From contig DASPIR010000034.1 in the NCBI GenBank assembly GCA_035628995.1, positions 62,001 to 126,000 on the forward strand: a DNA stretch of 64,000 nucleotides, given 5' to 3'. The DNA is from Clostridia bacterium (GTDB taxonomy: Bacteria; Bacillota; Clostridia; Lutisporales; Lutisporaceae). The notes beneath the pieces were generated by a model, which did not search any database, was not told the DNA's origin, and saw nothing but the letters and a program-made list of their open reading frames with translations. The translations under genes and the position numbers were made by a program. Positions 53,003 to 54,822 of this stretch are shown here, piece by piece; the stretch's first letter is position 1, and every line of letters begins with the position of its first letter.

Positions 53003-53060
53003 TGTATTAACTAGAAGTAAAGGCTGTATATGCAAGTCATTGTATATACAGCCTTTGTTA

Positions 53061-53342
53061 TCAGCAAGAGCTTCTTGAACCGTTCACATATATCGAGAAA
53101 CCTTTTCTAAGCCAGCCTTTATTGTAGTCAATTTCTAAATAGTTGACTACATCGGCGATTTCCCTTTCTACTGAGAAAGCCATGCCGTCTTTTTCCACTG
53201 TTACTTCTCCATCCTGTGGCTCACCCTGAGCCAATCCAAAATATGGACCTGATCAGCCATAGCCTTGCAATACAATCCGGTAAGCTTTTGAATTAATGCT
53301 GGCAAACTCCTCTGCAGCTTGCTTAGTTATTCTTATATTCAT
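53061..53342 (-). CDS. HesB/IscA-like selenoprotein with in-frame TGA
   Basis: A 93-aa protein if TGA codon 30 (53253-53255) is read as selenocysteine. The sequence continues smoothly across it: RIVLQGYG-U-SGPYFGLAQGEPQDG. Relatives in the HesB-like family have Cys at this place before G-P. Downstream it keeps family features (DGMAFSVERE, LEIDYNKGWLRKGFSIYV, C-terminal SSC). A SECIS-like hairpin follows the TGA (53217-53233). GGGAGGTG precedes the ATG. The terminal codon is also TGA, followed by TAA. HesB-like selenoproteins are known in anaerobes. The alternative is a nonsense-mutated pseudogene. Confidence 0.8.
53217..53233 (-). promoter_or_regulatory. SECIS-like hairpin
   Basis: In the mRNA sense, TGGCTCA-GGG-TGAGCCA: perfect 7-bp stem with a G-first 3-nt apical loop. 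26 nt separate the TGA from the loop, inside the 16-37 nt range used for bacterial SECIS elements. Confidence 0.75.
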
Positions 53343-53369
53343 GATGACACCTCCCAACGTTCACTACCC

Positions 53370-53386
53370 GTACCCCCGTGGGGTAC
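53370..53386. promoter_or_regulatory. CsoR-like operator palindrome
   Basis: GTACCCC-CGT-GGGGTAC, G/C-tract palindrome of the CsoR/FrmR-family operator type, 28 bp upstream of the selenoprotein ATG and near a TATAAT (53395-53400) in the divergent region. Confidence 0.5.
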
Positions 53387-53508
53387 ATATTAATTATAAT
53401 GCTGATTCAGGTGAAAATCAAGTACTGAAAAAAGAAAATTACAGGTTAAGGCTTGTCACACTATTTTGTGGCCAAGCATATCCTGCCAGTAGAAAGGAGG
53501 TGAAAAAA

Positions 53509-54009: not shown

Positions 54010-54086
54010 TGGTGCGCCTGAAGGGAATCGAACCCCTGGCACACGGATTAGAAGTCCGTTGCTCTATCCAACTGAGCTACAGGCGC
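54010..54086 (-). tRNA. tRNA-Arg (anticodon TCT), copy 2
   Basis: 77 nt with CCA. Acceptor GCGCCTG/CAGGCGC, anticodon loop CTTCTAA. Identical in sequence to the copy at 54664. Last gene of the tRNA operon. Confidence 0.96.
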
Positions 54087-54092
54087 ATATTT

Positions 54093-54167
<75 letters not shown>

Positions 54168-54663: not shown

Positions 54664-54740
54664 TGGTGCGCCTGAAGGGAATCGAACCCCTGGCACACGG
54701 ATTAGAAGTCCGTTGCTCTATCCAACTGAGCTACAGGCGC
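54664..54740 (-). tRNA. tRNA-Arg (anticodon TCT), copy 1
   Basis: 77 nt with CCA, identical to 54010-54086; anticodon loop CTTCTAA. Confidence 0.96.
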
Positions 54741-54747
54741 ATGTTAT

Positions 54748-54822
<75 letters not shown>

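Follow-up and report, generated by a model that had tools for sequence, protein, structure and literature searches.

A HesB-like selenoprotein gene of a Clostridia bacterium and the predicted CsoR-type operator at its promoter

The window, a 64,000-nt stretch of DNA from a Clostridia bacterium, carries on its minus strand (53342 to 53061, direct reading) a hesB-like gene in which the TGA at codon 30, judged from comparison of related sequences, is nearly certain to encode selenocysteine (Sec). Its product adds a member to an established family, the HesB-like selenoproteins (UxGP; TIGR01911), and the promoter is followed by a predicted CsoR-family operator. On balance we favor the reading that the gene encodes a redox or sulfur-handling selenoprotein with the IscA/HesB fold, which would be repressed by a CstR-like protein as part of a persulfide regulon. 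The features of the locus are collected in Table 1.

Table 1. Features of the hesB-like selenoprotein locus, in window coordinates
Feature	Position	Strand	Remarks
-35 element TTGATT	53416..53421	-	17-nt spacer to -10
-10 element TATAAT	53393..53398	-	promoter reading
Palindrome GTACCCCACGGGGGTAC, predicted CsoR-type 2 operator	53370..53386	.	core TAC-N9-GTA (53371-53385); definition from PMC3902906
Ribosome-binding site GGGAGGTG	53348..53355	-	direct reading
hesB-like selenoprotein CDS	53061..53342	-	93 aa, Sec at residue 30, stop codon included; conserved TGA, NCBIfam matches
In-frame TGA, Sec codon 30 of UxGP motif	53253..53255	-	conserved in relatives; aligned with IscA cluster Cys
Bacterial SECIS-like hairpin, 7-bp stem	53217..53233	-	TGGCTCA (53233-53227), loop GGG (53226-53224), TGAGCCA (53223-53217)
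Cys93 codon	53064..53066	-	sole C-terminal Cys; last residue in most relatives too
Tandem stop TGA-TAA	53058..53063	-	TGA here a true stop; relatives terminate at the same place
17-bp inverted repeat, probable transcription terminator	53019..53056	-	directly after stop codons

Evidence for selenocysteine at codon 30

The frame opens with ATG (53342-53340) and runs through 29 codons, the TGA and 63 more codons to a terminal TGA, giving the protein MNIRITKQAAEEFASINSKAYRIVLQGYG-U-SGPYFGLAQGEPQDGEVTVEKDGMAFSVEREIADVVNYLEIDYNKGWLRKGFSIYVNGSRSSC; it is a gene that standard gene callers would split or drop at the internal TGA. The initial annotation had described this frame with the right coordinates, and both the strand and the conserved upstream operator were absent from it. 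Reading the feature on the plus strand yielded no frame. The terminal TGA was also considered as a second Sec codon (SSCU) and ruled out, as relatives stop there with TAA, TAG or TGA, and comparison of their C-termini revealed no common extension past this point. Elsewhere in the window, a tRNA-Arg(tct) and tRNA-Gly(tcc) pair occurs twice in one tRNA cluster (54010-54167 and 54664-54822), apparently by duplication.

A first search of relatives recovered homologs from 19 of 60 related genomes, and each of the 20 matches, the window gene counted in, contains exactly one in-frame TGA, all of them falling in a single alignment column. A wider sample of the class gave matches in 53 of 391 genomes, where the number of TGAs was one in some cases and zero in others, and many of the more distant members have no stop. 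Cys stands at the Sec position (GxGCSGPxFG) in Youngiibacter fragilis, a Peptostreptococcaceae MAG and a Clostridium sp.; the profile search of contigs used a Cys-containing pattern and so found mainly Cys forms. The window protein has USGP, in which the TGA is aligned to the conserved Cys of homologs and followed by x-G-P, and the family shows U in close and C in more distant homologs, the alternatives that the initial annotation had proposed looking for at codon 30.

The genome, which is in 35 contigs and estimated by tool to be 99% complete and 2.4% contaminated, holds all four components of the Sec machinery named in the initial annotation, each over its curated cut-off. The genes selD (393 bits), selA (630 bits) and selB (372.5 bits) sit side by side at G000:C21:84085-88588, and the gene for tRNA-Sec (anticodon TCA) maps to G000:C21:104102-104194, all on a contig other than that of the hesB-like gene. 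The selD gene in turn encodes a selenoprotein, with a TGA in TRSSGUAAKIGP (L042, G000:C21:84085-85005).

As described initially, a 7-bp stem with a GGG loop starts 19 nt past the TGA. Folded alone, the hairpin is mildly stable (z = -1.74, equalled by 15 of 200 shuffles), and single-sequence MFE support for it is weak. Across 29 homologs 180 of 203 stem pairs are formed, versus 116.2 +/- 5.1 (maximum 134) in 2000 draws of a synonymous randomization, in which the codons of 29 distinct TGA-containing genes were swapped for synonyms at the codon usage of the window; the stem geometry was fixed from the window gene, which biases its own p value, and the other genes are independent of that choice. 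Changes on both sides were found in five of the seven stem pairs, the observed covariation score was reached in 0 of 500 shuffles, and GG begins every apical loop of the 29 homologs. The hairpin is decisive because pairing and covariation are kept across these homologs, not on account of single-sequence folding, and the family test places it far above the random level that the initial annotation had named as grounds for rejection. Functional Sec insertion, also suggested there, is supported by the conserved TGA, the Cys homologs, the Sec machinery and the covariation of the stem. By comparison rather than biochemistry, SelB with Sec-tRNA would read UGA codon 30 owing to the hairpin 19 nt downstream. 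The contrary reading of a pseudogene or sequencing error, with the TGA as a nonsense mutation and no protein made, could appeal to the split frame and the modest z value of the isolated hairpin and is refuted for practical purposes by the identical TGA in 19 of 19 relatives across many genera, the complete Sec machinery and the synonymous-site covariation.

A divergent HesB-like selenoprotein with an IscA-type fold

HesB-like selenoproteins were listed in published work by Zhang et al. (2006, PMC1794560) and are characterized in a review by the motif UxGP (PMC13188914), and the window gene falls into this family, as the initial annotation had presumed. It matches NCBIfam NF038090 (IscA_HesB_Se; E 3.6e-12, 46.5 bits) and TIGR01911 (HesB_rel_seleno; E 1.2e-7, 32.3 bits) under their curated cut-offs of 85 and 66.35, which are naming thresholds and not biochemical features. 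Since both models match 29 of the 30 alignment members and one relative in the same alignment (L098) clears the TIGR01911 cut-off with 69 bits, the window gene falls within a divergent branch of the family. With the other members it shares the IscA/HesB fold, Sec of UxGP at the first IscA Cys position, Cys forms in other species and a bacterial SECIS downstream; it differs from them in its scores below the cut-offs and its single C-terminal Cys.

The AlphaFold model, computed with Cys substituted for Sec, has a pLDDT of 91.3 and a pTM of 0.81, and its best Foldseek matches in the PDB are IscA and SufA (1x0g, E 6.8e-7, TM 0.75). Profile alignment places Sec30 on the conserved cluster Cys of E. 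coli IscA, which bears out the initial proposal of a metal-binding Cys before Gly-Pro at the TGA site, and places the last Cys, Cys93, on the first Cys of the C-terminal pair of E. coli IscA, the second being missing. The protein therefore resembles the A-type Fe-S carriers IscA, SufA and ErpA in fold and in the position of the first cluster Cys, whereas it has Sec for that Cys and one C-terminal Cys instead of their CxC pair; of the three-Cys IscA set (first Cys plus C-terminal CxC), Sec30 and Cys93 are the only counterparts. Sec30 takes the place of the first cluster-binding Cys of IscA, with Cys93 remaining.

In same-genus genomes G001 and G003 (L092/L093, also L038/L039), GDCGULSMAYS replaces GYGUxGP and is accompanied by a perfect SECIS-like stem; this form has neither the C-terminal Cys nor TAC-N9-GTA upstream and possibly represents a different selenoprotein subfamily. 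The Sec form of Desulfogranum mediterraneum (L108), GGUAGPSLGL, has a Cys-rich C-terminus (CSSGSCSSGSCGU), in which a second TGA is directly followed by TAA.

Predicted operator and candidate regulon

Transcription would proceed from a sigma-70-type promoter, whose TATAAT is followed after 7 nt by the palindrome GTACCCCACGGGGGTAC and after 8 nt by its core TACCCCACGGGGGTA (53385-53371). Type 2 CsoR operators are defined as TAC-N9-GTA with C and G tracts (PMC3902906), and a dyad of exactly this form, with its C/G tracts, is found here at the promoter. The same dyad flanking C/G tracts is seen in Streptomyces lividans, as TACCCCCTAGGGGTA in copZA (PMC3902906), the difference being that it serves copper export there and precedes a selenoprotein gene here. 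The perfect TACCCYNNNGGGGTA occurs in the genome at this site only.

TAC-N9-GTA lies within 100 nt upstream of 22 of the 29 Sec-HesB genes, versus 1.2 expected from shuffles and a background of 1.6% of the remaining 100-nt windows of these loci; the loci are related by descent, so that a binomial value overstates the enrichment, although divergence has accumulated in the stretches between the conserved parts. Most of the sites are located 28 to 51 nt ahead of the start codon. The element was not found within 100 nt of the remaining seven genes, several of which have longer or imperfect versions. Three Sec-HesB genes from other families (L098, L101 and L102) show a longer spacing of about TAC-N14-GTA, to which a different CsoR-family subgroup possibly binds. 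Genome scans with TACCCYNNNGGGGGTA, whose spacing is off by one base, gave nothing above control, and the corrected pattern with one mismatch gave no enrichment (18 versus 21 in the control); enrichment became visible only once the -10 element was added to the pattern and relatives were included.

With the layout TATAAT, 4-14 nt, TACC-N7-GGTA, 53 hits versus 17 for the reversed control were obtained in 14 genomes of the window's family (f1; our count), and the genes directly downstream sort into a small number of groups, encoding the HesB-like selenoprotein, regulators of the CsoR family, enzymes similar to CoA-disulfide reductase and membrane proteins similar to CcdA. In the window's genome this arrangement lies upstream of hesB and of the genes for the regulator at C23:40903 (TTGACA...TATAAT...TACGGATACGGGGTA), a CoA-disulfide reductase of 559 aa that contains a rhodanese domain, a CcdA-ResA pair and a NapH-like ferredoxin. 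The predicted regulon loci apart from hesB are L084, L143, L078 and L046 (CoA-disulfide reductase-rhodanese, CcdA-ResA, NapH-like ferredoxin, CstR-like regulator).

The candidate regulator (C23:40903-41139) matches PF02583 (E 3.2e-27) and, under cut-off in every case, the NCBIfam models RicR, FrmR and RcnR; it has Tyr at the copper-His position of CsoR and keeps both sensor Cys. In six f1 genomes the operator stands upstream of 6/6 regulators lacking this His and of none of the His-containing ones; in family f22 (G042 and G172) the regulator with the operator upstream keeps the His. CstR represses CoA persulfide reductase in Enterococcus (PMC9405070) and reacts with selenite and tellurite (PMC5016687). 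The persulfide-sensing CstR regulon of Staphylococcus and Enterococcus (PMC9405070) is similar to the predicted one in its CsoR-family regulator without the copper His and in the CoA-disulfide/persulfide reductase with a rhodanese domain under its control, and differs in that the predicted regulon would further include a selenoprotein, a CcdA-ResA pair and a NapH-like ferredoxin. A CstR-type regulon that includes the HesB-like selenoprotein is moderately supported by these comparisons.

Proposed role and alternative readings

In the proposed mechanism, a CsoR-family repressor, likely the CstR-like protein at G000:C23:40903, would bind TAC-N9-GTA just downstream of the -10 box and block transcription. 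The inducer would then most likely be persulfide or a related reactive sulfur or selenium species, because the repressor has its sensor Cys and carries Tyr for the copper-binding His. Once made, the selenoprotein would work alongside the other products under the same operators, namely the CoA-disulfide reductase-rhodanese, the NapH-like ferredoxin and the CcdA-ResA thiol system. Under such stress it may serve to carry sulfane sulfur (or selenium) or to reduce it, or else to mend or assemble Fe-S clusters. A more specific version, in which it is, in this bacterial family, a persulfide/selenide handler induced via the CstR-type repressor, with Sec30 and Cys93 transferring or reducing sulfane sulfur (or selenium) in place of housekeeping Fe-S assembly, is put forward tentatively, as a possibility that falls somewhat short of even chances.

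The main rival is that a copper-sensing CsoR binds the operator and the selenoprotein protects or repairs Fe-S clusters in copper stress. Members of the CsoR family recognize similar sites, so the repressor could be the copper CsoR; the operator agrees with the general type 2 definition (PMC3902906), copZ in this genome has as its neighbor the gene of a CsoR-like protein carrying the HxxxC copper motif (L045), and an HxxxC regulator has the operator in the f22 genomes. In the window's family, however, the operator precedes none of the HxxxC regulators and 6/6 of the no-His ones, and the co-regulated genes encode thiol and persulfide enzymes, not copper pumps, and we consider copper sensing unlikely. 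Slightly less probable still is an ordinary HesB-like housekeeping Fe-S carrier, with the palindrome as the site of another factor or a 5' RNA hairpin of the transcript: the IscA-like fold and the naming of the family as iron-sulfur related speak for it, but the same element stands ahead of unrelated genes and of a CsoR-family gene, and the protein lacks the second of the two C-terminal Cys found in classical IscA.

Listings of HesB-like selenoproteins go back to 2006 or earlier, and a 2026 review still groups them under unclear function. Our limited literature search, which is no proof of absence, found no paper tying them to a CsoR or CstR operator, and the regulatory link of a HesB-like selenoprotein to a CsoR/CstR-type operator appears new. 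The conserved operator offers a testable clue, predicting when the gene turns on, which repressor would act on it and which enzymes would be its partners. That the predicted operator is common to persulfide-reducing enzymes suggests an unreported job for the protein in sulfur or selenium stress; if true, a selenoprotein would be wired into a reactive-sulfur stress regulon.
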